From positions 62,001 through 126,000 of the forward strand of contig CANKCB010000004.1 of the NCBI GenBank assembly GCA_947480335.1: a stretch of 64,000 bases of DNA, written 5' to 3'. Both the position numbers and the translations under genes were made by a program. A model generated the notes under the pieces. It was not told the origin of the DNA. It did no database searches and saw nothing but the letters and a program-made list of their open reading frames with translations. Positions 4,084 through 55,277 of the stretch are shown in pieces. The DNA comes from Gammaproteobacteria bacterium. GTDB taxonomy: Bacteria; Pseudomonadota; Gammaproteobacteria; Eutrophobiales; Eutrophobiaceae. Within the stretch, counting starts at the first letter, position 1. Each line of letters begins with the position of its first letter.

Positions 4084-4084
4084 A

Positions 4085-6205
4085 CTAGAAGCTTCCGCTC
4101 AGTGACAGAACGAATCGATAACCGATATGACGTTCCCGGTTGGCATAAAAATCAACCGGGGAATTGTCCCTGGCACCGGTAAACACGGTACGATTTCGTT
4201 GTATCGTATAGTTAAGGATATTTTCAGCTGACAGACGTATCTTGGTATCAAACCAGCGTGTAGTTTCTACAAAAGTATTGATCGCCATGTTCTCATCATT
4301 TAACTCGAGCTCATTGACTTTATATACTGGCCGCTCGGCACGCTCGGCAGCCGTCCAGCCCCAGGCCATGCGGGCCTGTTCAAAATCCTGACGATAATCA
4401 ATCCTGAAAGAATACTTGTTATTTCTGCTCAGATTGGCAAGCGTACGATATCCGCCATCGCCTGACTGGCCGGAAAAGATACGGTGTTCCCCGGTAACCG
4501 GATCCACCACACTGGAGTCCTGCCAGCGCAGTTTTACATCCAGTCTGGCACCGGTCAGTCCCAGCGTTTCCAGCGGCAGGGTATTTTCTATTTCAACACC
4601 CCAACGCCTGCCATCACCAATATTTCCCGGCACCTCAAAGGTCGGTGTCAGTGGCAATAAATCCATTACATCGGATACCCAATGATGGAACAGGGTAACC
4701 TTGATCACACTCAGCTTGCCAAAACGTCGCTCATGCCCCAGCTCGGCAATCCAGGTGGTATCAGGTTGCAGGTTCGGATTACCCAGCGCCAAATCATCAT
4801 CTTCCAGCACGACCGAGCTGACAAAGTCATTGAAATCCAGCTGCGCTACTTCACGCGCCAGCCGGATACGTGTCTGATTACCCTGATTGGGTGAATAACC
4901 CAGTACAGCTTGTGGTTTCAGGAAAAAGAAATTCCGTTCCAGTTCAGCATCACCACTCTGGGAAATCGTGGATGTCTCTGCACCCATTCCATAATCGAGT
5001 TTGAATAAACCGAGAGACCACGTGTCCTTTAAAAGAAAATCGCCGCGCATTTCTTCGACACGTGTATTAGCACCGGGAACGGCAACCGTAACCGGCCCTT
5101 GTCCCTTGTCTACAAACTGGGTCAATGAACCATCCAGTTCGTTATAGGCCGCTTCTGCATTCAGCTGTACTGAATGATCGGTTATACCAGCCCAATCAAA
5201 CTCAAACCGTCCGATCGCTTCGGTACGCTGGTTATCCGTGGACGCCTCACGCAGTTGAGTCTGTTTTGCCGTGCTATCAAAATTACGCTGGGTAGAGACC
5301 GGTTGCCGTTGCTCGCGAAACAACAACAGTATCGCCTTGCCTGTCAGCTCATCTGCCAGTTCGCGTTCGGCATCCATACCCAGTTCAAACTGTGAGTTTT
5401 TTTCCTTGTCTACCAAAGTGACCAACTCGCCAGCACCGGTAAAAGGGGCCTTGAGTCTCGGATTCAGGGTATCCCGCTCGGAGTCCGTCATATTGAATTT
5501 ACTGTTTAGTTGCAACAGGGTGGCGCCCATCCATCTGGATGCATTCAGATAGACTCCGGAGATTTTCAATCCTGACTCACTGGTATCTTCGGTTCGGGTT
5601 TCGGTTATGGTGCCACTACTGTTCAGGATTTTTTCACTGGCATACCTGCCGCTGGAATCACGTTCAACGCCCATACCAACATTGTACTCAATGCCGGCAA
5701 CTACATCCGACAGCGACATGCTTAATCCCGGTTTCAACGGTGCGGCACTGTTGTCTTCCAGAAAGGCATCCCAACGCACGGCGGTCGGAACATTTGCACG
5801 CAATATGATATTCGCCACTAATGCACGACCATGCAGGTCAATATTGCGCACCTCACCGCGTATCAATTCAATACGTTCTACCTGACTGGCCGGTATACGT
5901 GCCAGTATGGCGGAAGGTAAATCCTGTTTGGCGCTGGTATACTCATCATTAATCAATATATTGCCAACTGCAGAAGCAAAGCCCCGTATATCTTCGCCAT
6001 CGTCAAGTTGAAATCCCGGTAACTGACCAACCATATCCAGTGCGGTATTCGGTCGATAGCGATCAAAATAGTCTGCTGCATAATCAACCACCAGATTTTG
6101 CTGATCAGTAGCTGAGGCAACTGGCGGCTCTGTGATCTGGGCCAAAACGGGATCAGGTAAAACCGACGCACACAACAATAACGGATACCCCCAACGATAC
6201 ATCAT
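4085..6205 (-). CDS. TonB-dependent outer-membrane receptor, family A
   Basis: A complete 706-residue receptor with signal peptide, the family plug blocks (NTALDMVGQLPGFQLDDG, GNILINDEYTS, RIPASQVERIELIRG), a barrel with FHHWVSDVMDLLPL and a terminal Gly-Ser-Phe. Two consecutive ATG codons (6205 and 6202) could start it. The GGGAG inside the Gly-Ser-Phe-stop codons of the upstream gene is well placed to act as its Shine-Dalgarno sequence. It is the third gene of the array. The conserved blocks match its neighbours closely while the barrel segments between them diverge, as expected for paralogs with different surface loops. It should sit in the outer membrane and depend on TonB energy; the substrate is not predictable. 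Confidence 0.93.
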   Translation of the reverse strand: MMYRWGYPLLLCASVLPDPVLAQITEPPVASATDQQNLVVDYAADYFDRYRPNTALDMVGQLPGFQLDDGEDIRGFASAVGNILINDEYTSAKQDLPSAILARIPASQVERIELIRGEVRNIDLHGRALVANIILRANVPTAVRWDAFLEDNSAAPLKPGLSMSLSDVVAGIEYNVGMGVERDSSGRYASEKILNSSGTITETRTEDTSESGLKISGVYLNASRWMGATLLQLNSKFNMTDSERDTLNPRLKAPFTGAGELVTLVDKEKNSQFELGMDAERELADELTGKAILLLFREQRQPVSTQRNFDSTAKQTQLREASTDNQRTEAIGRFEFDWAGITDHSVQLNAEAAYNELDGSLTQFVDKGQGPVTVAVPGANTRVEEMRGDFLLKDTWSLGLFKLDYGMGAETSTISQSGDAELERNFFFLKPQAVLGYSPNQGNQTRIRLAREVAQLDFNDFVSSVVLEDDDLALGNPNLQPDTTWIAELGHERRFGKLSVIKVTLFHHWVSDVMDLLPLTPTFEVPGNIGDGRRWGVEIENTLPLETLGLTGARLDVKLRWQDSSVVDPVTGEHRIFSGQSGDGGYRTLANLSRNNKYSFRIDYRQDFEQARMAWGWTAAERAERPVYKVNELELNDENMAINTFVETTRWFDTKIRLSAENILNYTIQRNRTVFTGARDNSPVDFYANRERHIGYRFVLSLSGSF

Positions 6206-6209
6206 CAGG

Positions 6210-8339
6210 CTAGAAACTCCCGCTTAACTCAAATGAAACACGGAATCCACGGGTACGTTCACGAGTCTCATGCAAGGCCAGTGGAGACAATTCACGTTCA
6301 CCGGTATAGATCAACCTGTCACGTGATTCAACCATATCGAGAATATTTTCAGCGACAATTTTCGACTTCATGCCGAAGTATCGGGTGGTTTCGACAAACA
6401 CATTAAACTCGTAATCATCGTCAGCCACGTCCAGTTCATTAACCTTGAACAGCGGTCGCTCGGCACGTGTACGCACATCCCAACCCCACGCCATACGGGC
6501 GGCCTGAAAATCCTGACGAAAGTCGACGGTGACGGCAAACCGGGTATCATCATTAAACTTCAGAGGGAATATCGCACTCGGGGGAGTACGGTGTGAAAAA
6601 ATTCTTTTCTTACCGGTAACAGGGTCAGTAACAGAAGATTTTTGCCAGCGGGCATTGATATCCAGTTTCGCGTCGCGCAATCCCAGCCAGTCCAGCGGCA
6701 AGGTGTTCTCGATATTAAATCCCCAACGTGTGCCGTCACCGATATTACCCGGCGCTTCAAACGTCGGTGTTAAAGGCAGCAAATCCAGCATGTCCTTGAT
6801 CCAGTGGTGGAACACAGTCAGCTTGACCACGCTTTCCGAACCAAAGCGCTGTTCCTGACTGAATTCAGCAATCCAGGTGGAATCCGGACGGATATCGGGA
6901 TTACCGAGTGCCAGATCGTCATCTTCAAATACAGTAGCGCTGACAAAATCAGCAAAATCCAGCTGGGCAACTTCCCTGGCAAAACGTACCCGTGATTGCG
7001 AGCTCTTGCTTGCACTGTAGGTCAGTACTGTCTGCGGTTTAACAAAGAAGAAACTGCGTTCCTGTGTGGCATCCCCACTCTGTGAGATGGTCGAGGTTTC
7101 AGCGCCTACACCATAATCCAGCTTGAACTGACCCAAAGCCCAGGTGTCCTTTAACAGAAAGTCCCAGCGCACTTCCTCTACACGCGAGTTACCACCCGGT
7201 ACTGACACGTTGACCGGTCCTTTGCCAGTGTCCTCGGTTTGCTCCAGTGTTCCGTCAAGCGAATTAAATGCACCTTCGACATTCGCCTGGATATTATGGT
7301 CCGCTATCACTTCCCAGTCGAACTCTACTCTCGATATCGCTTCGGTTGAGTCAGTTTGTGTGTCTGCGATCCTCGCCAGAGACTTCACGCCTAGCGCATT
7401 GTAACGATCCAGTGTCGAGATGGTGTTTTCACCACCGTGGGTCAGTACAACAATCGCCTTGCCAGTCAGATCATCCGTCAGTTCACGCTCGGCATCGACA
7501 CCGAGTTCAATTTTGCCTGTATTGAAATCCTCACCAATATATTCATCACGCTTGATACCGCCCGTCGCTACCGGCGTACGTTTGGCAATACGCATACCAT
7601 CACGTTCCTCGCCATTGAAGTTGGCGTTAAACTGCACCAACGTCAATCCAAACCGGGTAGAGGTGGTCAAATTCCCACCGCCTCGAAGACCGGCAAGATC
7701 AGCATCATCCAGTTTTTTCTCAATCAAGGTACCCTGACCGTTGGTGGTGTCCTGAAAAGTAATATCGCCACGGGTGAAGCGGCGGAAATTCAGGCCGGCG
7801 TTGTAATCGGTTTCGCGCCAGCGATCCGATATGGAAATGCCTCCTTCAAATGTACTGAAATAATCTACGTTATAGCGCCAGACGGCTTCCCAACGAATCG
7901 CCGCAGGCGAATCAACACGCAACACGATATTGGCCACGATACCCTGACCTTGTAGATCAATATCACGAACCTGACCATGGATTATTTCTATTCGCTCAAC
8001 CAGGCTGGCCGGTATACGAGTCAGAATCAAGGAAGGTAAGTCCTGTTTGGCACTGGGTCTTCTGTCATTGATAAGAACATTCCCGGCGGCCGCACCCAGA
8101 CCACGTGAGGCGTCACCATCACTCAACTGAAAACCTGGCGTCTGGTTAATCATGTCCAGTGCCGTATTCGGTTTGTAACGGGCAAAAAAGGATGCCGGAT
8201 ATTCGACTATCAGGTCAGAGGCCGGGCTGGCCGCCGTTGAGGGTACGGCATCCGGTGTTTGTGCCAACAGCAGGCTGGGGAAAAAAACACTGATTAACAG
8301 ACCAAACATTAATTGTGATGGCATCCGAATCCTGTTCAT
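6210..8339 (-). CDS. TonB-dependent outer-membrane receptor, family A
   Basis: A complete 709-residue receptor. The signal peptide (core LMFGLLISVFFPSLLLAQ) precedes the plug blocks NTALDMINQTPGFQLSDG and GNVLINDRRPSAKQDLPS. The barrel carries DDLALGNPDIRPDSTW, FHHWIKDMLDLLPLTPTFE and a terminal Gly-Ser-Phe. Its ATG at 8339 is 3 bp downstream of the stop of the first gene of the array. The GGGAG within the last codons of that gene is about 10 bases upstream and is the only plausible ribosome-binding site. It is the second gene of the array. Its role is uptake through the outer membrane; the ligand is unknown. Confidence 0.93.
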   Translation of the reverse strand: MNRIRMPSQLMFGLLISVFFPSLLLAQTPDAVPSTAASPASDLIVEYPASFFARYKPNTALDMINQTPGFQLSDGDASRGLGAAAGNVLINDRRPSAKQDLPSLILTRIPASLVERIEIIHGQVRDIDLQGQGIVANIVLRVDSPAAIRWEAVWRYNVDYFSTFEGGISISDRWRETDYNAGLNFRRFTRGDITFQDTTNGQGTLIEKKLDDADLAGLRGGGNLTTSTRFGLTLVQFNANFNGEERDGMRIAKRTPVATGGIKRDEYIGEDFNTGKIELGVDAERELTDDLTGKAIVVLTHGGENTISTLDRYNALGVKSLARIADTQTDSTEAISRVEFDWEVIADHNIQANVEGAFNSLDGTLEQTEDTGKGPVNVSVPGGNSRVEEVRWDFLLKDTWALGQFKLDYGVGAETSTISQSGDATQERSFFFVKPQTVLTYSASKSSQSRVRFAREVAQLDFADFVSATVFEDDDLALGNPDIRPDSTWIAEFSQEQRFGSESVVKLTVFHHWIKDMLDLLPLTPTFEAPGNIGDGTRWGFNIENTLPLDWLGLRDAKLDINARWQKSSVTDPVTGKKRIFSHRTPPSAIFPLKFNDDTRFAVTVDFRQDFQAARMAWGWDVRTRAERPLFKVNELDVADDDYEFNVFVETTRYFGMKSKIVAENILDMVESRDRLIYTGERELSPLALHETRERTRGFRVSFELSGSF

Positions 8340-8342
8340 AAT

Positions 8343-10493
8343 CTAGAAACTCCCGCTCGTCAAAAATGATAATCGAACACCTTCATGTCCTGTAGTTATT
8401 TCACGAAATTCAACAACTGAAAGATTTCTGGCGCCTGTAAAACTGCTACGATCCCTCTGTTGCGACAGGTCCGGAATATTCTCTGCAAGCAGACGCATCT
8501 TGATCCCAAACCAGCGAGTGGATTCGATAAACGCATTCAGGGTAATACCTTCATCATAGATATCCAGTTCATTGACCTTGTACAACACACGTCGAGCGCG
8601 CATACCTGTATTCAAACCCCAGGCCACTCTGGCTGCCTCGAAATCCTGACGAAAATCCGCAATAAAGGCATAACGGTTTTCATCCCGAAACTTGATATAA
8701 GGTGTACCACCAAATCCCTTGTTGCCTGATAACATTCGTTGAACGCCGGTTACCGGATCCTCGACGCTGGAATCCTGCCAGCGATATTTCAAATCGAGTC
8801 TGGCTCCGGCCAGACCTGTCCACTCAAGCGGTATTGTGCTTTCCAACTCCAGCCCCCAGCGCTTGCCGTTACCAATATTGCCAGGTGCTTCAAACGTTGC
8901 CGACAACGGCAATAAGTCCAGCACATCACTAATCCAGTGATGAAACAGGGTCACCTTGACCACACTGAGCTCACCAAAACGCAACTCCTCACCTAACTCT
9001 GCTATCCAGGTTGTATCTGGCCGCAGGTTTGGATTGCCCAATGCCAGATCATCATCGATGTACACCGTTGAGCTGACAAAATCATCAAAATCCAGTTGTG
9101 CCACTTCACGTGCCAACCGTACACGGGTCTGACGTCCCTGCGAGGGAGTATAGGTAAGCACCATATGCGGCTTGATGAAAAAGAAGTCACGTTTCAGGTC
9201 GGTATCACCAGTCTGGGAAATTCTGGATTTTTCTGCACCTACTCCATAGTCCAGCTCAAACTGTCCGAATGACCAGGTATCCTTAAGCAGAAAGTCGCCA
9301 CGGAGCTCTTCAACCCGGGTATTGGCTCCGGGAACGTCAACAGCGACGGACCCGAGTCCCTTGTCGACGCGTTGATCCAGCGTGCCATCCAGTACGTTCT
9401 GGGCCGTTTCAGCGTTCAGCTGCCATTCATGATCAGTCATGCCGGTCCATCCAAACTCAAGCCGGCCAATACTCTCGGAACCTATCGTCTTTGAATCGGC
9501 AATACGATACTGCGTCTGGTTACCGGTGGTGGCAATACTCCGCTGTGTATCAATCTCATCGTATTCATCCCGGTTGTAGATAAGAATGGCCTTGCCCGTA
9601 AGATCTGTATTCAGTTTACGTTCAGCATTCATGCCCAGCTCGTATTGCAAATCTTTCCTGTCCGCATTGAATAATTCCTGGCGAGGACGGTTAATCGGTG
9701 ATTGCGGCGTACGGATAGACGTGAAAGGCTCATCCTCCGTCATACGGTCGATATTGGTATTTAATTGCACCAGAGTCTGACCCAGCCAACCCGAAGCATT
9801 CAGATTGCCGCCCAGCTTGTAGCCGGTCTCGATCGATTGTTCATCTCGTTTTTCAATGAGCAAGCTATTGCCATTAAACTTGTCACCCGTCCCGCCTTCG
9901 CCGGTCGAGCTTTTTTCGACACTGAGGCCGGTATTAAAATCGATAGCTTGCCACTGGTCAGACAGGGACACATTGCCGCGAACCGTTACCTTATCGACAT
10001 CCAGATTTTTTCTGACACCGGTTTCCCAGCGTATGGTCGCAGGTATTTCTTCCCGCAAGACCACGTTTGCCACAATGGTCTGTCCACGCAGATCAACCCC
10101 ACGCATCTGCCCCTGAACCAGCTCGATATGATCGACCTGACGTGCCGGAATGCGACCGAGTATGGCAGAAGGAGAATCTTCCTTGGCACTGGGTCTGCCT
10201 CCATTGATCAGGACATTTCCAGCTGCCGCACTGAACCCACGTTCCTCACTGCCATCATCCAGCTGAAAACCTGGCAATTGTTTCACCATGTCGAGGGCGG
10301 TCTCAGGATTATATTTACTGAAGAATGAGGAGGGATAGTTAACTGTTTGCTGTTGTGCAAGCGAGTCAGTCGTTACCGGATTTATCTGCTGGGCAGAGAC
10401 AGGGAATGTTAACAGGCTAAGCTGTAATAACAGGCTCGACAGAATGAGTCGTGAATATGCTGTCGTGTTAATTGGAAGTCTGTAAATTTTCAT
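8343..10493 (-). CDS. TonB-dependent outer-membrane receptor, family A (first gene of array)
   Basis: A complete 716-residue receptor and the promoter-proximal gene of the five-gene array. A hydrophobic N-terminal signal segment is followed by NTALDMVKQLPGFQLDDG, GNVLINGGRPSAKEDSPS and RIPARQVDHIELVQG in the plug, and by DDLALGNPNLRPDTTW and FHHWISDVLDLLPLSATFE in the barrel. It ends in Gly-Ser-Phe. The ATG at 10493 has no strong Shine-Dalgarno sequence, unlike the internal genes. The 228 bp upstream (10494-10721) must hold the operon promoter, but I could not pick out a convincing -35/-10 pair. No sigma/anti-sigma pair or TonB-ExbBD gene is nearby. Substrate unknown. Confidence 0.93.
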   Translation of the reverse strand: MKIYRLPINTTAYSRLILSSLLLQLSLLTFPVSAQQINPVTTDSLAQQQTVNYPSSFFSKYNPETALDMVKQLPGFQLDDGSEERGFSAAAGNVLINGGRPSAKEDSPSAILGRIPARQVDHIELVQGQMRGVDLRGQTIVANVVLREEIPATIRWETGVRKNLDVDKVTVRGNVSLSDQWQAIDFNTGLSVEKSSTGEGGTGDKFNGNSLLIEKRDEQSIETGYKLGGNLNASGWLGQTLVQLNTNIDRMTEDEPFTSIRTPQSPINRPRQELFNADRKDLQYELGMNAERKLNTDLTGKAILIYNRDEYDEIDTQRSIATTGNQTQYRIADSKTIGSESIGRLEFGWTGMTDHEWQLNAETAQNVLDGTLDQRVDKGLGSVAVDVPGANTRVEELRGDFLLKDTWSFGQFELDYGVGAEKSRISQTGDTDLKRDFFFIKPHMVLTYTPSQGRQTRVRLAREVAQLDFDDFVSSTVYIDDDLALGNPNLRPDTTWIAELGEELRFGELSVVKVTLFHHWISDVLDLLPLSATFEAPGNIGNGKRWGLELESTIPLEWTGLAGARLDLKYRWQDSSVEDPVTGVQRMLSGNKGFGGTPYIKFRDENRYAFIADFRQDFEAARVAWGLNTGMRARRVLYKVNELDIYDEGITLNAFIESTRWFGIKMRLLAENIPDLSQQRDRSSFTGARNLSVVEFREITTGHEGVRLSFLTSGSF

Positions 10494-17357: not shown

Positions 17358-19442
17358 TTAGTTTATAACTTTCCAGGGCGCGGCCTCATCACGGTAGATT
17401 ACCTTGCCCCCAACGATCGTAATCAGATTCTTGTTGTTTTCCAGTTCTGATTCCGGCTGCTCAAGATAATCATTTTCAATGATTGCAAAGTCAGCAAACT
17501 TGCCCACTTCCAGCGAGCCTATGTAGTCCTCTGCCAGCATGGATTCTGCGTTTGCATAGGTAAACAGCTTCAATGCCACGACTCTGTCGACCGCTTCTTC
17601 AGGTACCGAGGTCCGGCCAGCCGCACTACGTGTTACAAACAAGGGCATATGTCTGAACAGCAAATCGGGTGGTCCGGCACTGTGTGTTTCTGCGGCTACA
17701 CGTACACCGGCATCGATCAGACTCTTCATTGGAGCCAGGAACTCGTACCCTTCCGGTCCGTAGAAGGTATCGATAATGTTTGGCTCCATCGTCAAAGCCC
17801 GGCGGATCTGCATCGGGACAATAATATTGTATTTCTTCAGGCCGGCAATCACGTCAGGCTCCTTGCCCACCATCGTGCCGTGCGCCATCAAAATACGCAT
17901 CTGCTTGATTTCTTCTGCCGTAATCAAACCAGAGGCAATAGCTTCCTCAACGTAGCCAATAAACTGTCGCATACCGTGACTGCCTACACCATGCAAACCG
18001 GCAATACGCCAGCCATGCATCAGCGCGTTGTGCATACCGATAATTTCCGGCGTCCGTTTACCAGGCTCCAGGAATCCACAACGCTCGCGTTTCTTTGCTT
18101 GTTCAGCTACGTCTGGCAAACCGGGCATATCCGGGCCCAGGCAGGCAATTTCAGGAGTATCCCAGGCACCTTCAGAACCGATACCATGGTTCCATAACCA
18201 GCGGTTACCACTCTTGGGGCCAAAGGACCAATGTGCTCCCATGAACGGGTAGACGTGTTCCACAAAGTCTGGTGAATGCAGCTCATTGCGGTGCATTTCA
18301 TAGCTGTAGGCATGGCGTATAGGTAAACGACCATCGCGACGCAGCAAATAGTGATAAGCACTCAACTGATGCGGGAAGTCTACACGCGATCCAAACGCGG
18401 TTATTCCCGAACGGGCCATGTATTCAAACCCTTTCTTAACGGCATCCGCATAAACCGGAGTTGGGTACGGTTTTTTCAGTACCTGCTGTTCCCAGGAACT
18501 CTTCTCACCGGTACCAAGTATTCCACGCGGTCCGGCATTCTGGATGTCTGGACGCAAGGCGGTAACCATATCTGCAAGGCCTGGGATCATTTTTTCGGTC
18601 TCGGCCCAACCTTGGTCATTAAATACGATAAAGGCGTGGCTGCCAGTCAAGCCTTGCAAGGCCCGCTTTTGGTGGGCAATAACATCGGCAACGACCGTAT
18701 CATAACGCGGGGTCGCATCAGCAACCGTCGGCTTACGCAAGATTTCAACATCGGTAATCGTTTTTAACCGTCTGATGCTACCAGCTGGTTCGCCGTTATT
18801 ACGAATACCGGCATTAGCAGGATTATTTGGCAATGCCTTGGTCAAGCCCTCACGGGTAAAGGAGGCTTTAGCCGGATCAGGAGTACCAATCCAACCTTCT
18901 GCAATATCCCAGATGGTTGGTGTACCCTTGGGTGGGTTCGGTATCAACTCGATTCGTATCCATTCACCCGGTTTAATACCTGCCTCTTTCGCATACTGGG
19001 TAATCTTTTTATACGTTTCTTCAGCGGTCGCTTCTACCTGCACACCCATGGAAATATGCTGCAATCGCAACTCCTGCTGGGGCAGCTGGGCTTCGATTAA
19101 TTCAAACGGATGGGTATGACTTTCGATAAACCCCGGAATCAACATCTTGCCGCCCAGATCAATTACCTGGGTTTTAGGACCTTTCATCTTGGCCAGATCA
19201 GCTGCACTGCCGATTGCCGCGATTTCTTCTCCCCTGACAGCAATCGCTTCAGCTATGGTACCCGGATCATCATTCAGTTCATGTACGTTCAACGTTACTA
19301 CTTTTGCATTGGTATAAATGGTGTCCGGCCACATAACCAGCGCATCTGGTGGCGTTTGAGCACTGGTTACAGCCGTACCACTGGCAAAGATAACCGGTAA
19401 CAACAGTGATGTCAGCCAACGCTGACGGTTTTGAATAGTCAT
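17358..19442 (-). CDS. exported amidohydrolase family 3 protein
   Basis: A 694-residue protein with a signal peptide (core SLLLPVIFASGTAVTSAQ). It has the amidohydrolase N-terminal beta domain and the first metal motif ESHTHP (His109, His111) after the IDLGGKMLIPGFIESH strand. Further family blocks are HGVGSHG, AHGTMVG and ETHSAGPP, and the C-terminal domain is typical (IGSLEVGKFADFAIIEND). The family hydrolyses C-N bonds in a metal-dependent way; in this exported subgroup the substrate is unknown. It is a single-gene homolog of the two-gene amidohydrolase at 36052-38227 and serves as the intact reference for it. It diverges from the exported alpha/beta hydrolase at 19687, with 244 bp of shared upstream DNA. 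A terminator follows it. Confidence 0.87.
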   Translation of the reverse strand: MTIQNRQRWLTSLLLPVIFASGTAVTSAQTPPDALVMWPDTIYTNAKVVTLNVHELNDDPGTIAEAIAVRGEEIAAIGSAADLAKMKGPKTQVIDLGGKMLIPGFIESHTHPFELIEAQLPQQELRLQHISMGVQVEATAEETYKKITQYAKEAGIKPGEWIRIELIPNPPKGTPTIWDIAEGWIGTPDPAKASFTREGLTKALPNNPANAGIRNNGEPAGSIRRLKTITDVEILRKPTVADATPRYDTVVADVIAHQKRALQGLTGSHAFIVFNDQGWAETEKMIPGLADMVTALRPDIQNAGPRGILGTGEKSSWEQQVLKKPYPTPVYADAVKKGFEYMARSGITAFGSRVDFPHQLSAYHYLLRRDGRLPIRHAYSYEMHRNELHSPDFVEHVYPFMGAHWSFGPKSGNRWLWNHGIGSEGAWDTPEIACLGPDMPGLPDVAEQAKKRERCGFLEPGKRTPEIIGMHNALMHGWRIAGLHGVGSHGMRQFIGYVEEAIASGLITAEEIKQMRILMAHGTMVGKEPDVIAGLKKYNIIVPMQIRRALTMEPNIIDTFYGPEGYEFLAPMKSLIDAGVRVAAETHSAGPPDLLFRHMPLFVTRSAAGRTSVPEEAVDRVVALKLFTYANAESMLAEDYIGSLEVGKFADFAIIENDYLEQPESELENNKNLITIVGGKVIYRDEAAPWKVIN

Positions 19443-21456: not shown

Positions 21457-23586
21457 TCAGAACGAACCTACAATCTTGAACAATGCGCGTGCGCCGTTAT
21501 GACCATCTCGCAATTCACGACGTAGCACCGGTGTCAGGGATCTTTCACCGGTATAGATGGTTCTGTCACGTTTGACCCTATTATCGATCATGTTCTGTCC
21601 TTCAACACTCATTTTCAGACCAAACCAGCGTGTAGTCTCAATGAATGCCATAACATCATAGCCTTCGTCGAAAATATCCAGTTCGTTAGCCTTGTATAGA
21701 GCGCGTTCATCACGCTCGGCTACACCCCAGCCCCAGGAAACCTTTGCACTCTTGATATCCTGACGAAAATCCACATCAAACGCATATCGGTTTTCATTCA
21801 TTAATGACCAATCACCTCGGAAACCACCCTCACCGGATAGTCTGCGGTCTTCACCCGTAACCGGATCGACCACAGTGGAATCCTGACGACGTGCTCTGAA
21901 ACTGATCTGCGAACTATCCAGACCGGTCCAGTCCAGTGGTACCGTTGTTTCGACGATCATGCCCCAACGTCTGCCATCACCGATATTGCCTGGCGCTTCA
22001 AATGTTGGAGTCAATGGCAGTAAATCCAGCACATCCTTAATCCAGTGGTGGAATGCTGTTACCTTAATTACACCAACCCGGCCGAAACGACGTTCGTGAC
22101 TTAACTCGGAAATCCAGGTGCTGTCCGGGTGCAGGTTTGGATTACCAAGCGCCACATCATCATCTTCAAATACGGTGGCCGATGTAAAATCGTTAAAGTC
22201 CAGTTGTGAGACTTCACGTTCCAGTCGCAGTCGTGTCTGGTTACCCCGGACCGGAGCCCAGGTCAGCACCATGCGTGGTTTCAAAAACTTGAATGAACGT
22301 TCCAGCGTGGCGTCACCTGACTGTGAAATGGTGGATCGTTCCAAACCTAATCCAGTCTCAACATCGAGCTTGCCTATTGACCAGCTATCTTGAACCAGAT
22401 AATTCCATCGCACTTCTTCAACGCGCACATTGCCGCCTGGCACAGCGATTACTTTCGGTCCTTTACCGGTATCATCGGTAAAAACCTGTGAATTATCGAG
22501 TACGTTAAACGCTCTTTCGGCATTCGCTTCTATGGCATGGCCTTCGATTCCTGCCCAGTCGAATTCCATGCGGCCAATAAACTCCGTACTGGTGAACTCT
22601 TCATCTTCCAGCTGATAGCGGGTCTGTAAACGTGCTGCATTAAAATCACGCTGTGATACGGATGGCTTGCCATCCAGCAGGTTATACAACACGATGGCCT
22701 TGCCCAGAAATACCGGCGTCAGTACACGCTCGGCATCCATGCCCAACTCAAGACGCTTGTTACGACGTATCGTCAATATATCCTGATACGTAGTCACACC
22801 GGTCAACTGGGACACGCGTGTAGACTGTAATCCCAGATCGCGGTTTTCAATACCGGTTCTGCCGTTTAATTGAACAAATGATTTACCGATCCAGGTGGCG
22901 GCATTCAGATAGGCATTGGCATTGGGTCCATCACCCTGATCTTCGTCCGTACGAATTTCGGTCAGTTTTCCTGTGCCGTCATATTTTTTGATTACTCCGG
23001 GATCACCCAGATTGGCCCAGCGTGTGTCAAATCCGACGTTATATTCAATATCACCCAAACGATCAGCGAGTGAAATGGAGGCGCCCGGTGACCAACCGAC
23101 CAGAAAATTCTGGCGGTTTTGCAGTTCCCATCTAACGGTTGCCGGAGCATCTGTGCTCAGTACAACGTTGACAACTTCTACTTGTCCTTGCAGATCGATA
23201 TCTCTTACGCGTACACGGATCAGTTCAATGCGTTCTACCTGACTCGCCGAAATACGGCCCAGAATGGCTGATGGCAGATCCTGTTTTGCGCTTGGCCGTT
23301 TGTCATTAATCAGGATATTGCCAGCGGCTCCACCGAAACCACGTACGCCACCACCATCATTCAGGGTAAAACCTGGCACACGGTTAACCATTTCCAGTGC
23401 GGTTTTCGGTTGATATAAAGTAAAAAACTCCTTGGCAAAGGTAACGATTCCATCTGCGGTAGTAACACCTGTTTGTGCGGGCACCTCCTGAACAGGCACC
23501 GTAGTCTGTTGTGCATACAGGGGGTTACCATAAACGAAAAGTATTGAGGCAACGATGGTTGAAAGACAAAGACGCAATGAATTCAT
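21457..23586 (-). CDS. TonB-dependent outer-membrane receptor, family A (stand-alone paralog)
   Basis: A 709-residue receptor from ATG 23586. A reading from 23682 would add 32 residues that do not resemble a signal peptide, whereas 23586 has GGAG eight bases upstream and starts the signal peptide (core LCLSTIVASILFVYG). It carries the same blocks as the 1-10493 array: KTALEMVNRVPGFTLNDG, GNILINDKRPSAKQDLPS, DDVALGNPNLHPDSTW, FHHWIKDVLDLLPLTPTFE and a terminal Gly-Ser-Phe. It stands alone between the convergent exported hydrolase and a family B TBDR, and is about 11 kb from the array. It probably derives from the same duplication series. The ligand is unknown. Confidence 0.93.
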   Translation of the reverse strand: MNSLRLCLSTIVASILFVYGNPLYAQQTTVPVQEVPAQTGVTTADGIVTFAKEFFTLYQPKTALEMVNRVPGFTLNDGGGVRGFGGAAGNILINDKRPSAKQDLPSAILGRISASQVERIELIRVRVRDIDLQGQVEVVNVVLSTDAPATVRWELQNRQNFLVGWSPGASISLADRLGDIEYNVGFDTRWANLGDPGVIKKYDGTGKLTEIRTDEDQGDGPNANAYLNAATWIGKSFVQLNGRTGIENRDLGLQSTRVSQLTGVTTYQDILTIRRNKRLELGMDAERVLTPVFLGKAIVLYNLLDGKPSVSQRDFNAARLQTRYQLEDEEFTSTEFIGRMEFDWAGIEGHAIEANAERAFNVLDNSQVFTDDTGKGPKVIAVPGGNVRVEEVRWNYLVQDSWSIGKLDVETGLGLERSTISQSGDATLERSFKFLKPRMVLTWAPVRGNQTRLRLEREVSQLDFNDFTSATVFEDDDVALGNPNLHPDSTWISELSHERRFGRVGVIKVTAFHHWIKDVLDLLPLTPTFEAPGNIGDGRRWGMIVETTVPLDWTGLDSSQISFRARRQDSTVVDPVTGEDRRLSGEGGFRGDWSLMNENRYAFDVDFRQDIKSAKVSWGWGVAERDERALYKANELDIFDEGYDVMAFIETTRWFGLKMSVEGQNMIDNRVKRDRTIYTGERSLTPVLRRELRDGHNGARALFKIVGSF

Positions 23587-23728
23587 GCATTTACTCCAGA
23601 CGGGGTTAAAACAGGTGCAAACTCTACCAGTAAACCGGGCTGATTCCAAACGCATACAGCCATTTCCACTATCAATCCACAATGAATGGAATAGATCTTT
23701 GATAGACCGGTTAAACAGACAAAAAAAA

Positions 23729-35367: not shown

Positions 35368-35952
35368 TTAGTCCAGTAGTTCCGGATAGACATGGGCATC
35401 AGACTGCGTACGAAGTTTTTGGATCAGATCGTTTATGTAATGGGACGTACCCACCGCATCAGTCGGTGATAGATGGCTTTCATTAATTAGAGTCTGTTTG
35501 ACCTTGCGCAGTATCAACTGCTCATGCAAATAGGTTTTAATCCGGAGATCTTCGTCCGCACTAAACGCTGGTGTGGCGCCATACTGCTGTTGCAGACCGT
35601 CAAGATAATCTGTTACTGCAGTGTTGATTTCTGGTTCCGATACCGTGATATTTCGCTGGCTCGCCAGCTGAAGCAGTAACATTTCTGCAACACGGTTTTG
35701 CAAAAACCGTTCGCGCAGATCCCGTATCTGCATTCCACTTTTGATGGGTGTGGCATCCTGTACTGCACTCATTACCATCGCTAAATCAAACTGCTGACCG
35801 AATTCACTTCGAGTCATTTGACTATTCCCAATCTGGAGCACAATCGGATCCTCGTCACCAAAGACAGTGGGTATTGCTACAGACAATAACAAACAAATTA
35901 AACAATTAATGACAGTTTGATTTGATCGGTGTTTATAAAAAAAAGCTGTCAT
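35368..35952 (-). CDS. exported SurA-N-like chaperone without a parvulin domain
   Basis: A 194-residue protein from ATG 35952 (upstream codons to 36039 overlap a terminator and do not look coding). A signal peptide (core VINCLICLLLSVAIPTVFG) precedes an all-helical region typical of SurA/PpiD N-terminal chaperone domains: a VLQIGNSQMTRSEF start, LRERFLQNRVAEMLLLQLA and ISEPEIN-like spacing (VSEPEINTAV). The peptidyl-prolyl isomerase domain normally following in SurA is absent, so it would be a small holdase. It lies between a family B TBDR and the split amidohydrolase, on the same strand. A role in folding the many outer-membrane receptors encoded here is plausible but unproven. Confidence 0.68.
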   Translation of the reverse strand: MTAFFYKHRSNQTVINCLICLLLSVAIPTVFGDEDPIVLQIGNSQMTRSEFGQQFDLAMVMSAVQDATPIKSGMQIRDLRERFLQNRVAEMLLLQLASQRNITVSEPEINTAVTDYLDGLQQQYGATPAFSADEDLRIKTYLHEQLILRKVKQTLINESHLSPTDAVGTSHYINDLIQKLRTQSDAHVYPELLD

Positions 35953-36051: not shown

Positions 36052-37464
36052 TTATTTGCCTGCTTTAATCGCCGGCTTGAAATCAGGATCCTGATAGGAC
36101 ACCTTATCTGCCAGCACAGTCATAACTACCTTGTTATCTCGGATGGTCTGATTGTCGCCATCGAGGTAGGGTTTGTCAGCCACGATGAAGTCAGCATTTT
36201 TGCCTACTTCCAGACTGCCTACCTTGTTTTCTGCAAACAGGAATTCTGCTGAACGGTAGGTAAAGAGTTTCAATGCAGTAACACGATCAATACCTTCTTC
36301 CGGATTCAAGACTTCACCTTCACCAAACTTGGCAGGTGGTCCGCGTCCTTCATCCTTACCCTTGGCAATTTCACGGTTAACAAACACATCCAGAATTCCA
36401 AAGTAGGTTTTCGGATTCGGATGACCGGTTTCACTCTCGCCTACCACATTGACACCAGCATCCAGCAAGGTCTTGACCGGGCCGATAAACTTGAAGCCAG
36501 CTTCACCATAATTCTGGCGGGCATTGTCAGGTTCAATTGCCAGCGCACGGCGCAGGTTAATTGGCAGAAACAAATTGTATTTAACCATGGAGGCAACCAC
36601 ATCGGGTACCGCGCCAGTCATGGTGCCATGAGCAAATCCATGACGGGAGCCTCGTACATATTCCAATGTCAGGAATTTCGGATCCGCTTTCATGAACTCT
36701 TCAAGATGTTGCACGAACAGGCGGATAGCGTTACTGCCCACACCGTGCACACCCGCAAAACGCCAGCCGGATTTGACACCACGCATCAGCGCCTTGACCG
36801 TTGCTGAATTGAAGTCCGGGCATATTTCCAGAATTTCCTTCACCTGGCGTACATCGACACCCGGTTTGGCAGGCAAGTCATTACCCAGACAACCGCGGTT
36901 TGGAGCATCCCAATCGCCTTCACTGGCCATACCGTGTAACCACAACCAATCGTTATAGTCAGCGGTGTTCCACAGCGCACCGGCGTTATCATACAAACCC
37001 ATCGCCGCCGCTTCAGGGATCGCCTGTCTGGCCAGATCGTAGGCATAAGCAAAGCGTATCGGCAGACGTCCTTCCTGACGCATCATGTAATGGTAGGCCG
37101 TAACCTGTGCATTCGTATTCAACCTCGAACCGAACGTGGTCATGCCGCCTTTGCTGTAATAATCGTCGACCAGCTTGCGGAAACCTTCGCCATACTGGGC
37201 CGGGGTCGGCTGTTCCATCAATAACTGATCCAGATGGGAACGCAATGGGCTCTGGGTAATAATTCCTCTACCACCCGCATTCTCCATGCCGCGCGACTGA
37301 TTATTAACCGACTCTTCAAAGTCTGGCCACATTTCCAGGATTTTATCCATCGCGTTCTGGTTGAACAGCATCACACGATGACTTGCCTGAACCGGCACAT
37401 TAACAAATGTCAATGCCAGAAAAATGGCACCCAGCCCAATTTTATGCATTTTTAATATATTCAT
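36052..37464 (-). CDS. amidohydrolase family 3, separately exported C-terminal half
   Basis: A 470-residue protein with its own signal peptide (core LGAIFLALTFVNVPVQA, cleavage near residue 27) followed at once by sequence that aligns with residue 269 onward of the intact amidohydrolase at 17358 (HRVMLFNQNAMDKI against HAFIVFNDQGWAETE). It holds the later metal and active-site blocks: HGVGS (His240), AHGTMTG (His279) and GESETGHP (His348). It also has the C-terminal domain (VGSLEVGKNADFIVADKPYL), but lacks the HxH motif. AGGAG at 37472-37476 overlaps the stop codon of the N-half gene, so both halves should be made together. The active enzyme must be a complex assembled in the periplasm if it exists. 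Confidence 0.85.
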   Translation of the reverse strand: MNILKMHKIGLGAIFLALTFVNVPVQASHRVMLFNQNAMDKILEMWPDFEESVNNQSRGMENAGGRGIITQSPLRSHLDQLLMEQPTPAQYGEGFRKLVDDYYSKGGMTTFGSRLNTNAQVTAYHYMMRQEGRLPIRFAYAYDLARQAIPEAAAMGLYDNAGALWNTADYNDWLWLHGMASEGDWDAPNRGCLGNDLPAKPGVDVRQVKEILEICPDFNSATVKALMRGVKSGWRFAGVHGVGSNAIRLFVQHLEEFMKADPKFLTLEYVRGSRHGFAHGTMTGAVPDVVASMVKYNLFLPINLRRALAIEPDNARQNYGEAGFKFIGPVKTLLDAGVNVVGESETGHPNPKTYFGILDVFVNREIAKGKDEGRGPPAKFGEGEVLNPEEGIDRVTALKLFTYRSAEFLFAENKVGSLEVGKNADFIVADKPYLDGDNQTIRDNKVVMTVLADKVSYQDPDFKPAIKAGK

Positions 37465-37471
37465 CTCACCA

Positions 37472-37476
37472 CTCCT
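37472..37476 (-). promoter_or_regulatory. Shine-Dalgarno of the amidohydrolase C-half, overlapping the N-half stop
   Basis: AGGAG on the minus strand lies seven bases before ATG 37464 and overlaps the TAG stop (37477-37475) of the N-half. It shows that the C-half has a dedicated initiation site and is not a frameshift product. Confidence 0.88.
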
Positions 37477-38227
37477 ATTTCAATTCGATAACCTGTTTGG
37501 TTACTGACTGTCCATCCGGGCCCACGGTAATATGGAACCAGGTATTTTTCTTGGGGGCTTCCAGAATCGATGACGCACTGGACAGCACAAACGGATAGTC
37601 CGAAACAATCTCCGTCACGTCTTCCTTGGTGATACTGACATCACTCAGCTTGGGCGCACTCATCAGTGTGGACACATCTGCTGGTGTGGCAAAACCGAGC
37701 TCGGGATTATGTACCAGTGCGATATTAATCCATTCTGTTGGTTCCGGCTTCACCGTGGCCAGCAATACCTGCATGGCCTTGGCCACCTTGGCCATGGTTT
37801 CGTCTTCATTGGCACCAACATCCAGACTGAGTGCATAGCCAACCGGGGTATTACGTAAATGGAATATTTCGCGAGCGAAACTTTCGGCCTCACCCATCGG
37901 GTGGACATGGCTTTCAACTATACCCGGCAACACGGTCTTGCCTTGCAGGTCGACTATCTTCGTCTTCGGTCCGGCCATTTTCATCATCGCATCGTTGGTT
38001 CCAAGCGCGATGATTTTTTCGTCACGAACGGCCATCGCCTGGACTATTGTGCCCGGGTTGTCGTTCATTTTGTGTTCATCCAGCGTGACGATGGTGGCAT
38101 TAGTATAGACGGTATCTGCATACATCAGGATTTCCGCCGGTAAGGACTGGGCTGCCAGTCTTGCGCTGGACAGCGCAAGCAACAGTCCAAATAATTGAAT
38201 CAAAACTGAATACTGCCGAAGTTTCAT
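37475..38227 (-). CDS. amidohydrolase family 3, separately exported N-terminal half
   Basis: A 250-residue protein from ATG 38227 (GGGAGAGA upstream). A signal peptide (core VLIQLFGLLLALSSARLAAQ) is followed by the amidohydrolase N-terminal beta domain (YADTVYTNATIVTLDEH) and the first metal motif ESHVHP (His107, His109). It ends after a beta-rich segment (NTWFHITVGPDGQSVTKQ) with a normal TAG stop. It covers the region equal to about residues 36-250 of the intact homolog at 17358. On its own it lacks the remaining metal ligands and most of the barrel, so it should need the product of the next gene, 10 bp downstream. No frameshift repair would join the two, because the second gene starts with a full signal peptide. 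Confidence 0.85.
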   Translation of the reverse strand: MKLRQYSVLIQLFGLLLALSSARLAAQSLPAEILMYADTVYTNATIVTLDEHKMNDNPGTIVQAMAVRDEKIIALGTNDAMMKMAGPKTKIVDLQGKTVLPGIVESHVHPMGEAESFAREIFHLRNTPVGYALSLDVGANEDETMAKVAKAMQVLLATVKPEPTEWINIALVHNPELGFATPADVSTLMSAPKLSDVSITKEDVTEIVSDYPFVLSSASSILEAPKKNTWFHITVGPDGQSVTKQVIELK

Positions 38228-38550: not shown

Positions 38551-39573
38551 TTATTTGCCTCTGGATTTCAGCAATGCATCCAGTTTTGGATATACGCGCC
38601 GGGTATTTGCTTCAAAAACCTTGTTACGGTTTTCTGGTGATAGTCCCAAAGCATCAATATAGCGCTTGGTATCATCGAACTGGTGCCCGGTCTCGGGATC
38701 AACACATTTGACCGCGCCGAACATTTCCGAGGCAAACAGGATATTGTTGATATCTATCACACGGAACAACAAATCAATGCCAGCCTGATGGTAGACACAG
38801 GTATCAAAATATACATTGCGCATGACATGGGTCGAAAGCAATGGTCGTTTAAGCATGTCAGCAAGTCCGCGATACCTGCCCCAGTGATACGGAACCGCGC
38901 CGCCACCGTGCGGAATAATAAATCTCAAATCCGGAAAATCACGGAACAGATCTCCCTGTATAAATTGCATGAACGCAGTGGTGTCTGCGTTGATATAGTG
39001 CGCACCGGTCGGATGAAAGTTCGGATTACAGGAACCCGACACATGGATCATTGCCGGCACATTCAGTTCTACCATCTTTTCATAGAACGGATACCAGGAT
39101 TTGTCAGTCAAGGGCGCACCACTCCAGTGCCCACCGGACACATCGGGATTCAGGTTACAGCCGACAAAACCCAGTTCATTGATACAACGTTCGAGTTCTT
39201 CAATGGAGTTTCGAATTGAAACACCATTGGATTGAGGTAACTGACAAACACCAGCGAAATTATCCGGAAACAGATCGACCACGCGCTTGATCAAATCATT
39301 ACATATTCGGGTCCAGGACTTAGACACGGCCTCATCACCGATATGATGCCCCATACCAACTGCTCGTGGAGAAAAGATGGTCATGTCCGCACCACGTTCA
39401 CGTATTACTTTTAGCTGATTCAGCTCGATACTGTCACGTATCTGATCATCCGATATGACCGCCAGTTTGGCCGCAGGCAAGGAAGCATTACCAAAATGGG
39501 CAATCTGTGCGTCACGAAAGTCAGTCAGTTGCTGTGGTGCCGTAGTGTAGTGGCCATGGCAATCAATAATCAT
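38551..39573 (-). CDS. ligJ: amidohydrolase family 2, 4-oxalomesaconate hydratase-like
   Basis: A 340-residue cytoplasmic protein matching LigJ in length and layout. MIIDCHGHYT carries the metal-binding H-x-H (His6, His8) and further metal-site His are in PAMIHVSG (His177) and PHGGGAVPYHWGR (His222). The C-terminal part has NILFASEMFGAV, where LigJ has a similar SE motif. LigJ hydrates 4-oxalomesaconate to 4-carboxy-4-hydroxy-2-oxoadipate in the protocatechuate 4,5-cleavage and gallate pathways. The next gene upstream is a LigK-like aldolase acting on that product, which supports the call. ACMSD-type decarboxylases are the main alternative in this superfamily. GGAGA precedes ATG 39573. Confidence 0.75.
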   Translation of the reverse strand: MIIDCHGHYTTAPQQLTDFRDAQIAHFGNASLPAAKLAVISDDQIRDSIELNQLKVIRERGADMTIFSPRAVGMGHHIGDEAVSKSWTRICNDLIKRVVDLFPDNFAGVCQLPQSNGVSIRNSIEELERCINELGFVGCNLNPDVSGGHWSGAPLTDKSWYPFYEKMVELNVPAMIHVSGSCNPNFHPTGAHYINADTTAFMQFIQGDLFRDFPDLRFIIPHGGGAVPYHWGRYRGLADMLKRPLLSTHVMRNVYFDTCVYHQAGIDLLFRVIDINNILFASEMFGAVKCVDPETGHQFDDTKRYIDALGLSPENRNKVFEANTRRVYPKLDALLKSRGK

Positions 39574-39606
39574 TGTAATCTTTTCTCCATCTGTTTCTTA
39601 ATTAGT

Positions 39607-39762
39607 AGAACCTATCTCAAAATCCAGCGAGCGCAGGTGAGACAAGGCAAAAATGGACGAGAAGGCGGAGTTTACACGACAGTTTGCCGCTTCGCAGCCC
39701 CGCATTTCGAGTCCATTATTTAACGCAGTATCACCAAGCGCAGCTATTTTGAGGAAGGTTCT
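39607..39762. mobile_element. MITE-like element with terminal inverted repeats
   Basis: A 156-bp non-coding element is bounded by imperfect inverted repeats of about 32 bases: the left end starts AGAACCTATCTCAAAAT and the complement of the right end reads AGAACCTTCCTCAAAAT. Both continue into a GCG-rich part ending GGTGA. Inside are further inverted pairs (ATGGAC at about 39653 and GTCCAT at about 39713), so the whole element can fold into a long hairpin. No transposase is encoded. Its right end overlaps the last codons of the LigK-like gene. I could not identify a clear target-site duplication or a second copy by eye. Confidence 0.72.
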
Positions 39763-40439
39763 TTCCGGTCCGGGTATTTCAGGCCCTTGGCAGCCAGCGC
39801 CGGACGCATATTATTCATGTCGAGACCCAGTTCGCCCGCCGCATAACGTTTGCGAATACCTGCCTCCTTTTCCTCACGCTGGGCAGACTTGGTAAGGATA
39901 TCAGCCGCTTCATGGCGCTCAACAATGACCACACCATCATCATCGGCAATGATCGCATCGCCCGGATGAACAATCTGTCCACCGCAGACGATCGGAATAT
40001 TCACATCTCCGACGACTTCTTTCACCGTCCCCTGTGCCGAGATGCATTTTGACCAGACCGCGAACCCCATTTCTTTCAGTTCAGCAATATCACGCACACC
40101 CGCATCAATGACCAGTGCACGTACACCCTTTGACATCATCAACGTTGCGAGCAGATCGCCGAAATAACCTGCATCTGAATACGAGGTGGGTGCCACGACC
40201 AGGATGTCCCCGGGTTTGACGATTTCCGCCGCAACATGAATCATCCAGTTATCGCACGGAGCAACAGAAACAGTGACTGCCGTTCCCGAGATGCGGGTGC
40301 CTGAATAGATCGGCCGCATGTACGGGGCCATCAGACCCTTGCGGCCCTGTGCCTCGTGTATAGTGGCTACGCCGAATTTACCGAGTTCTTTTACCGTGTT
40401 TGCATCGGTGCGGGTAATGTTTTCATAAGCGACGCCCAT
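39744..40439 (-). CDS. ligK: RraA-family 4-carboxy-4-hydroxy-2-oxoadipate aldolase-like
   Basis: A 231-residue protein of the RraA/LigK fold, close to the usual 225-230 residues. The active-site blocks are GDLLAT (94-99) and DAGVRD (112-117), whose Arg and Asp in class II pyruvate aldolases bind substrate and the divalent metal. Family members cleave 4-carboxy-4-hydroxy-2-oxoadipate to pyruvate and oxaloacetate, the last step of protocatechuate 4,5-cleavage. AGGAG is seven bases before ATG 40439. The last codons (KEPSSK and the TAG stop) lie inside the inverted repeat of a MITE-like element, so the native C-terminus has probably been replaced. It lies upstream of the LigJ-like gene, same strand. 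Confidence 0.8.
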   Translation of the reverse strand: MGVAYENITRTDANTVKELGKFGVATIHEAQGRKGLMAPYMRPIYSGTRISGTAVTVSVAPCDNWMIHVAAEIVKPGDILVVAPTSYSDAGYFGDLLATLMMSKGVRALVIDAGVRDIAELKEMGFAVWSKCISAQGTVKEVVGDVNIPIVCGGQIVHPGDAIIADDDGVVIVERHEAADILTKSAQREEKEAGIRKRYAAGELGLDMNNMRPALAAKGLKYPDRKEPSSK

Positions 40440-54291: not shown

Positions 54292-54545
54292 TACTTCCTC
54301 CAGAACATGTTACTAAAGGGTGATTTATAAGCTCTAGGATACGGGAAACGGGTCAGTTATGTCGAGTGTGAATTGTGCAAGCCATCATCAATTACCCACG
54401 TTTCCCCGGCCAACAATCTACAGACTAACTATCAACGAAAATTACAGAATTGAATCATTCTCCTATATGATAAGCATCACCATTGCTACACTATCCTGAT
54501 TGCAACAACTGGCCGTTTCAGCATTATCGATATGGAGAGAGAATT

Positions 54546-55277
54546 ATGAAACCCCTGTCTGAACAAGGCTGTGCCCGATGGATCGTTACATTATGCCTGC
54601 TTGGCGCAATCTTCTGCGCCAGAGTCTATTCACATGATTATACCAATCTGAATGAATACCAGATTGACCGTACCAACGAATCAATTTCTACCGGCATTCT
54701 GCAGATTCAAACGTTTATCAGTGAAATATTCAAGCAACAACATATCTCGGATAAATGGCCAGACCCGAAAATGTTATTGCTGCGTGATGACATGTTGCAT
54801 CAGCGAGAAGAAACGGCCATGGGACTCGAATATTTTCTGGCGGCCGGATTCAATACCCAGGCATCGGATCAATTACTTGCCCATCCTCTGGTTGGACGTT
54901 CTGTCGCTGCGAATCAGGTCGTAGAAAGCACCTACGCCCTGATTAACTATATCAATGCTATGGAAAGCCAGGATACCTTTATCAAGGAAGTCTATGCAAA
55001 CGGACAAGCGACCTGGATGTATAATCTGGTAACAGCTCAACGTGAAAAAATGGATATTTACCATGCCTTGTTTGTTGCGCTTCCTACACCACCAGGCACC
55101 ACAACTTTTACACCAACAAACCCAACCTCAGCCACAGCTAAAAATCCGGCTCAAGCGACAACATCTACGCCCCAAGCTGTCATGCCGGTTGTTTTATACA
55201 TACTGGGAGGGTTAGGCTTGTGTGCGCTGATCACACTTGTGTTCATTTCAGGTAAACACTCATCAGCTGCTACCTAG
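54546..55277 (+). CDS. exported hypothetical protein with C-terminal membrane anchor
   Basis: A 243-residue protein of unknown family, started at ATG 54546 because GGAGAG is seven bases upstream and a signal peptide (core WIVTLCLLGAIFCARVYS) follows. A helical domain (about 30-180) is followed by a Pro/Thr/Ala-rich linker (about 180-215), one membrane helix (VVLYILGGLGLCALITLVFI) and a short tail. The protein would be anchored in the inner membrane with the helical domain in the periplasm. It is 51 bp upstream of the methyltransferase gene, possibly cotranscribed. No function can be assigned. The 254 bp before it (54292-54545) show no gene. Confidence 0.65.
   Translation: MKPLSEQGCARWIVTLCLLGAIFCARVYSHDYTNLNEYQIDRTNESISTGILQIQTFISEIFKQQHISDKWPDPKMLLLRDDMLHQREETAMGLEYFLAAGFNTQASDQLLAHPLVGRSVAANQVVESTYALINYINAMESQDTFIKEVYANGQATWMYNLVTAQREKMDIYHALFVALPTPPGTTTFTPTNPTSATAKNPAQATTSTPQAVMPVVLYILGGLGLCALITLVFISGKHSSAAT

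Follow-up and report, generated by a model that had tools for sequence, protein, structure and literature searches.

Introduction

Hydrolases of the Amidohydro_3 (YtcJ-like) family (PF07969; for example 3icj and 3igh) are usually single polypeptides that combine a barrel with a small beta-sandwich. Two described systems come close to a divided form of such an enzyme. AibH1H2, a heterodimeric hydroxylase related to the amidohydrolase superfamily, joins two different chains in one active complex; it comprises two subunits that each have a metal centre of their own (PMC12141560), and not one barrel divided between them. In how it works, SdhB of Euglenozoa is the nearest analogue: its gene is split in two with a predicted mitochondrial targeting peptide on each half, and its metal-cluster ligands are all kept and shared out between the halves (PMC2663770). 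In that case, however, the genes are eukaryotic and nuclear, and an Fe-S protein is cut between two domains.

Here, we analyzed a split amidohydrolase in a stretch of 64,000 nucleotides of gammaproteobacterial DNA (hereafter the window). Unlike SdhB, it is encoded by a bacterial gene cluster, carries Sec-type export signals and is cut through one barrel enzyme. It shares the whole fold (as predicted below), the His motifs and the order of elements with single-chain PF07969 members, but differs from them in comprising two exported chains, in being cut within an inserted subdomain that separates barrel strands 1 and 2, and in having no detectable strand-8 Asp. In the literature searched, which did not include most subscription journals, no amidohydrolase is described as split into halves with a signal peptide each or as exported in two chains.

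An amidohydrolase gene in two parts

The two genes occupy positions 36052-38227 on the minus strand of the window. The N-half is an ORF of 250 aa (37475..38227, with its ATG at 38227) and the C-half an ORF of 470 aa (36052..37464). Judged by position in the pair model described below, the N-half contains most of the small beta-sandwich, barrel strand 1 with the HxH motif and the inserted subdomain, and the C-half contains barrel strands 2-8 and the last sandwich strands. Read on the minus strand, the junction consists of GAATTGAAATAG, GAGTGGTGAG and ATG in succession (AAA TAG GAGTGGTGAG ATG around the N-half stop), and the N-half stop codon TAG overlaps the Shine-Dalgarno-like TAGGAG of the C-half (37472..37477). 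The C-half start is out of frame with the N-half, and each half has a separate start, ribosome site and Sec-type signal peptide.

As a reference for the unsplit form we used P0003, an intact single-chain paralogue of 694 aa located at 17358..19442 (minus strand) of the window. BLASTP aligns N-half residues 4-212 with P0003 residues 6-208 at 36% identity, and the C-half with P0003 residues 265-685 at 37% identity. A linker of approximately 57 residues, located in P0003 at the cut, is absent from both halves; the rest of P0003 is covered. The first-pass annotation of this locus had read the two ORFs as a split amidohydrolase, each half with a complete Sec signal peptide, its own start and its own Shine-Dalgarno sequence, and with the second Shine-Dalgarno overlapping the first stop codon. 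All of this held, the signal peptides on heuristic grounds, and the split proved broader than claimed, being multi-copy and present in several genomes. Its further statement that the two halves together equal the intact amidohydrolase P0003 held only in part, given the missing linker and an identity of just 36-37%.

Signal peptides were called by a hydropathy and cleavage-site heuristic alone and not by SignalP. On this basis, the N-half begins with MKLRQYSVLIQLFGLLLALSSARLAA (38150..38227, minus strand), cleaved before Q, and the C-half with MNILKMHKIGLGAIFLALTFVNVPVQA (37384..37464, minus strand), cleaved before SHR and thus exactly at the homology boundary. Among 20 complete C-halves from all loci, 19 show a basic start and a hydrophobic stretch followed by a signal-peptidase-like site directly ahead of the conserved mature start, which usually takes the form [S/A/G]HRxxLxN; the sole exception is L042, whose cleavage site is unclear. 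At the position of the cut, the linker of intact paralogues is hydrophilic, with a best 11-residue hydropathy of 0.3-1.0 versus 2.3-3.5 in the C-half signal peptides. By the same heuristic, none of the 335 internal Met positions of intact paralogues provides a signal-peptide-like start, compared to 27 of 31 halves. Since the linker of the intact paralogues offers neither a hydrophobic segment nor a signal-like Met, the second signal peptide cannot be put down to chance hydrophobicity and was gained rather than uncovered. This supports, within the limits of the heuristic, the earlier claim that a frameshift cannot create it.

Putative metal-site residues are divided between the halves

The C-half matches the Amidohydro_3 profile (PF07969) at positions 123-472 with 89.9 bits (cut-off 29.7). 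The N-half covers profile positions 1-26 with 22 bits, which is below the cut-off by itself, and the intact paralogue P0003 scores 116.7 bits. The HxH motif expected after barrel strand 1 in this family is present in the N-half as H107 and H109 (in ESHVHP; 37901..37909, minus strand) and is invariant in all ten aligned N-halves. Further His residues, expected after strands 5 and 6, are present in the C-half as H240 (VHGVG; 36745..36747, minus strand) and H279 (FAHG; 36628..36630, minus strand). Both are invariant in 16 C-halves and match VHAIG and IEHA of 3icj, respectively, in the profile alignment. The assignment of HxH to the N-half and of the remaining His blocks to the C-half, as originally proposed, is thereby upheld.

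The amidohydrolase superfamily usually carries an Asp at strand 8. In the profile alignment to 3icj, no Asp was found at the aligned place in split members or in close intact paralogues. Near the end of barrel strand 8, two residues off the place of the Asp, there is instead an acidic residue, E343 (36436..36438, minus strand), which is invariant in 16 C-halves; this register is tentative, as it rests on the profile alignment alone. As the close intact paralogues also lack the Asp, the split is not the cause of its absence. Because the canonical Asp was not found and an invariant Glu seems to stand in for it, catalysis and hydrolase activity are not assured. The pair departs from the single polypeptide usual for Amidohydro_3: at 15 loci there are two ORFs, each having its own start and signal peptide, and we therefore regard the split pair as a variant and not as an ordinary member of the family. 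Of the known curated families, none reaches its cut-off. As a separate observation, the genome of the window encodes about 20 Amidohydro_3-type proteins in 2.4 Mb, an unusual expansion.

The split recurs with a fixed cut

A search for split forms in other genomes (genus, family, phylum-wide sample; 84,980 genomes) brought the count to 15 N-halves and 20 complete C-halves from seven genomes, always cut at the same place. Split pairs occur in five of the five species examined of the genus of the window and in the gammaproteobacterial genomes G450 and G468. At the thresholds used, neither the other 48 species of the family nor 397 further genomes sampled from the phylum yielded a split form. Matches to the N-region fall into two classes, with open frames of 250-285 aa in the split form (in the genus) versus 544-755 aa in about 90 intact relatives; a single match, of 336 aa, lies outside both. 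The conserved, multi-copy nature of the split had been missed in the first-pass annotation, as had the arrays in which one N-half heads four C-halves (see below).

The genome of the window itself holds two more split copies. In the first (L002), the C-half is 64% identical to that of the window, and the N-half is truncated by the contig end save for its last residues. In the second (L006/L045), the N-half of 254 aa and the C-half of 444 aa are about 42% and 37-40% identical to the respective halves of the window. In genome G009, the contig breaks within the C-half signal peptide, which is still readable as MKTNNMIKGGLGIMVLLALSMTAQA in our reading of the frame. Wherever the contig continues, the halves are grouped N then C, and none was found standing alone in another context. 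Relatives in which each half is a stand-alone protein with other functions, which would have refuted the proposal, were thus not found.

The distance from the N-half stop to the C-half start ranges from -4 to +63 bases across loci, with differing frames. Programmed frameshifting or read-through between the halves was considered and rejected, as these distances and frames differ among loci.

Two irregularities in the dataset should be mentioned. One N-half (L039:5639-6274; G008:C1:1439644-1440375) has an in-frame TAA in the signal-peptide region next to an intact C-half, possibly reflecting reliance on a second N-half nearby or a sequencing error. The contigs of L050, L053, L056 and L057 (CAMDWI01, CAMBTO01) are titled Klebsiella pneumoniae, evidently a submission error, as the content of these MAGs fits the uncultured genus of the window.

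Phylogeny, tandem C-halves and selection

In a tree of the C-region, splits of the window kind (type A) form one clade (support 99/99) and a second kind (type B) forms another (100/100). Both types group together outside the intact paralogues at just 58/57. With such weak joint support, one or two fissions are both possible, and a single origin of types A and B remains unsettled. N-half and C-half distances correlate with r = 0.94 overall and 0.78 within type A (Mantel p 0.0005). This agreement largely reflects shared ancestry, as would be expected if the pairs are inherited together.

In two genomes, G008 (L038) and G007 (L041), one N-half is followed by four tandem C-halves. The array C-halves are 62-72% identical among themselves, each has its own signal peptide, and each is 85-90% identical between G008 and G007. 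In the C-region tree, each array C-half groups with the C-half at the same position in the other species; the array therefore predates the separation of the G008 and G007 species. The gene count is most simply explained if the single N-half binds all four C-halves, but this is inferred from sequence alone and not shown.

Both halves are under strong purifying selection, with dN/dS values of 0.022-0.074 (Nei-Gojobori). Between close relatives, we obtained 0.034 for the N-half and 0.022-0.029 for array C-halves 1-3, and the type-B and G450/G468 halves yielded 0.02-0.07 where synonymous sites were unsaturated. These values are rough, as several synonymous distances are near saturation. An N-half gene followed by its C-half gene or genes, with separate signal peptides, one fixed cut and purifying selection on both parts, is thus established at the sequence level.

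Predicted structure of a split pair

The proposed structural check, a comparison of the two mature chains with a single-chain homolog, was run as a single-chain read-through. We used the type-B pair L057, whose halves are in one frame, and read its natural DNA through the N-half stop; the model is therefore one chain and not two free chains, and its halves are about 42% and 37% identical to those of the window. The underlying alignment comprised intact paralogues and separate halves (33 rows). The prediction yielded one complete amidohydrolase fold (mean pLDDT 80.9, pTM 0.80), with a mean confidence of about 89 in the N-half and about 90 from strand 8 onwards; confidence is low chiefly in the segment that links the two halves and in some loops. 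Residues 36-682 of the model align with single-chain 3icj, the best match, over 444 of 468 residues (Z 34.2, rmsd 6.6), and with single-chain 3igh over 456 of 483 residues (Z 34.1). The barrel with small beta-sandwich expected of Amidohydro_3 is therefore present by prediction, on a type-B pair, and an interface between two chains is not shown.

As a control, the C-half of the window was modelled alone from an alignment of 17 rows. It reached a pLDDT of only 55 and a pTM of 0.51, with about 37 from strand 8 to the end, and aligned with just half of 3icj (Z 12.7). The difference between the pair and the C-half-alone models agrees with a predicted barrel that needs both chains, although the comparison is imperfect, as the models were built from alignments of unequal size and composition.

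One PDB entry deserves separate mention. The uncharacterized protein BT9727_2919 (3ggm_A, 81 aa), solved as a stand-alone protein, aligns with this family in the N-terminal HxH region only (E 5e-14) and may represent another natural fragment or split form.

Preferred reading and alternative explanations

The old, conserved, multi-copy gene fission is confirmed by these data and extended beyond the window. We further consider it very likely that the split product is a two-chain periplasmic metalloprotein, even though experimental evidence for assembly and metal is lacking. It is also likely, with less certainty, that the two genes encode obligate subunits of one periplasmic Amidohydro_3 (YtcJ-like) metallohydrolase; here association, metal and activity are all inferred, without physical evidence. 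Neither chain is predicted to close the barrel alone, because strand 1 and the HxH motif lie on the N-half, and strands 2-8 and the other His residues on the C-half. The initial proposal that the metal site forms between two separately exported chains in the periplasm is hence supported as the best explanation, while the periplasmic meeting of the chains, the metal and the activity are not shown.

The rival that survives best assumes that the halves do assemble, but into a binding, sensory or degenerate heterodimer of amidohydrolase fold without hydrolase activity. In its favour, all split members and close intact paralogues examined appear to have Glu in place of the strand-8 Asp, and no known curated family reaches its cut-off. 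Against it, neither the HxH motif nor the two further His residues vary among sequences with roughly 36-70% identity, and a scaffold without metal would not need them. We therefore regard this alternative as unlikely.

Weaker still is the view that the halves are exported to act independently of each other, for example as a reduced enzyme (C-half) and a metal carrier or inhibitor (N-half). The separate start and signal peptide on each half would fit this view, as would the 4:1 excess of C-halves over N-halves in two arrays. However, on all contigs that extend far enough, N-halves and C-halves are paired with the N-half in front. In addition, the C-half has neither barrel strand 1 nor most of the sandwich and is predicted to fold poorly by itself, which makes independent functions very improbable.

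Finally, a frameshifted, nonsense-mutated or misassembled intact gene, which is what two neighbouring gene halves usually indicate, is practically ruled out by a cut that recurs unchanged in 15 N-halves and 20 C-halves from seven genomes, by dN/dS values of 0.02-0.07 and by a second signal peptide that is absent from intact paralogues.

Genomic context and proposed assembly

After the C-half of the window lies a gene for a SurA-like exported protein (35368..35949, minus strand), a candidate assembly helper, which matches SurA_N_3 in Pfam with 34.5 bits (cut-off 27.2) and has no PPIase domain. A SurA-like gene follows most type-A pairs (window, L002, L038, L039, L041, L048 and L066). The proteins of L002, L039 and L048 have both SurA_N and PPIase domains, and that of L038 is just under the cut-off (24.5). 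L040 and L042 lack such a gene, and it is therefore not essential to the design. Upstream of the window pair (38551..40439, minus strand), we found an Amidohydro_2 protein, which we take to be LigJ-like, and a 4-carboxy-4-hydroxy-2-oxoadipate aldolase (LigK/PcmE), in the same order as near the L038 and L041 arrays. Both the window pair and the arrays also have TonB-dependent receptors nearby. Taken together, this gene context offers a tentative hint at uptake and breakdown of an aromatic compound.

Under the preferred reading of a two-chain metallohydrolase, the two precursors would be made by coupled translation and exported unfolded by Sec, and the C-chain would be trimmed to begin at [S/A/G]-H-R. 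The chains would then assemble in the periplasm around a metal bound by residues of both; in most type-A loci, the SurA-like protein from the adjoining gene may assist this assembly. A disulfide between the chains is unlikely, since in the pairs examined the mature N-half contains no Cys outside the signal-peptide region. The substrate, conceivably an aromatic amide or ester in view of the LigK/LigJ-like neighbours, would enter via the neighbouring TonB-dependent receptors. A bolder possibility is a combinatorial enzyme, in which one exported HxH N-subunit is common to a set of exported C-subunits, four of them in G007 and G008, which complete the pocket and confer several specificities, with a dedicated SurA-like chaperone for periplasmic assembly.

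If the preferred reading is correct, two chains that are exported separately routinely combine in the periplasm to form a barrel metalloenzyme, and its fission has spread by duplication into many copies. One could then test how a second export signal arises in a split enzyme, how the two chains, still unfolded, meet after Sec, and whether splitting lets one half serve several specificity halves. For annotation, the case is a warning, as such pairs resemble pseudogenes and the N-half alone falls under the Pfam cut-off.

Two further protein families were observed in the vicinity of split pairs. An exported family of about 200-260 aa without a Pfam match (AHGEG.WN.F.IDN.ND..) adjoins the type-B and G450/G468 pairs; its members include L006:319-1071, L054:8416-9102, L042:4007-4582, L048:1953-2531 and L066:3941-4591, and a protein at 54483-55277 of the window is seemingly related. 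The window also encodes four tandem outer-membrane-receptor-like proteins of ~710 aa (1951-10493) and a fifth at 21457-23682, and in L038 and L041 the gene immediately preceding the N-half encodes a protein of the same kind.
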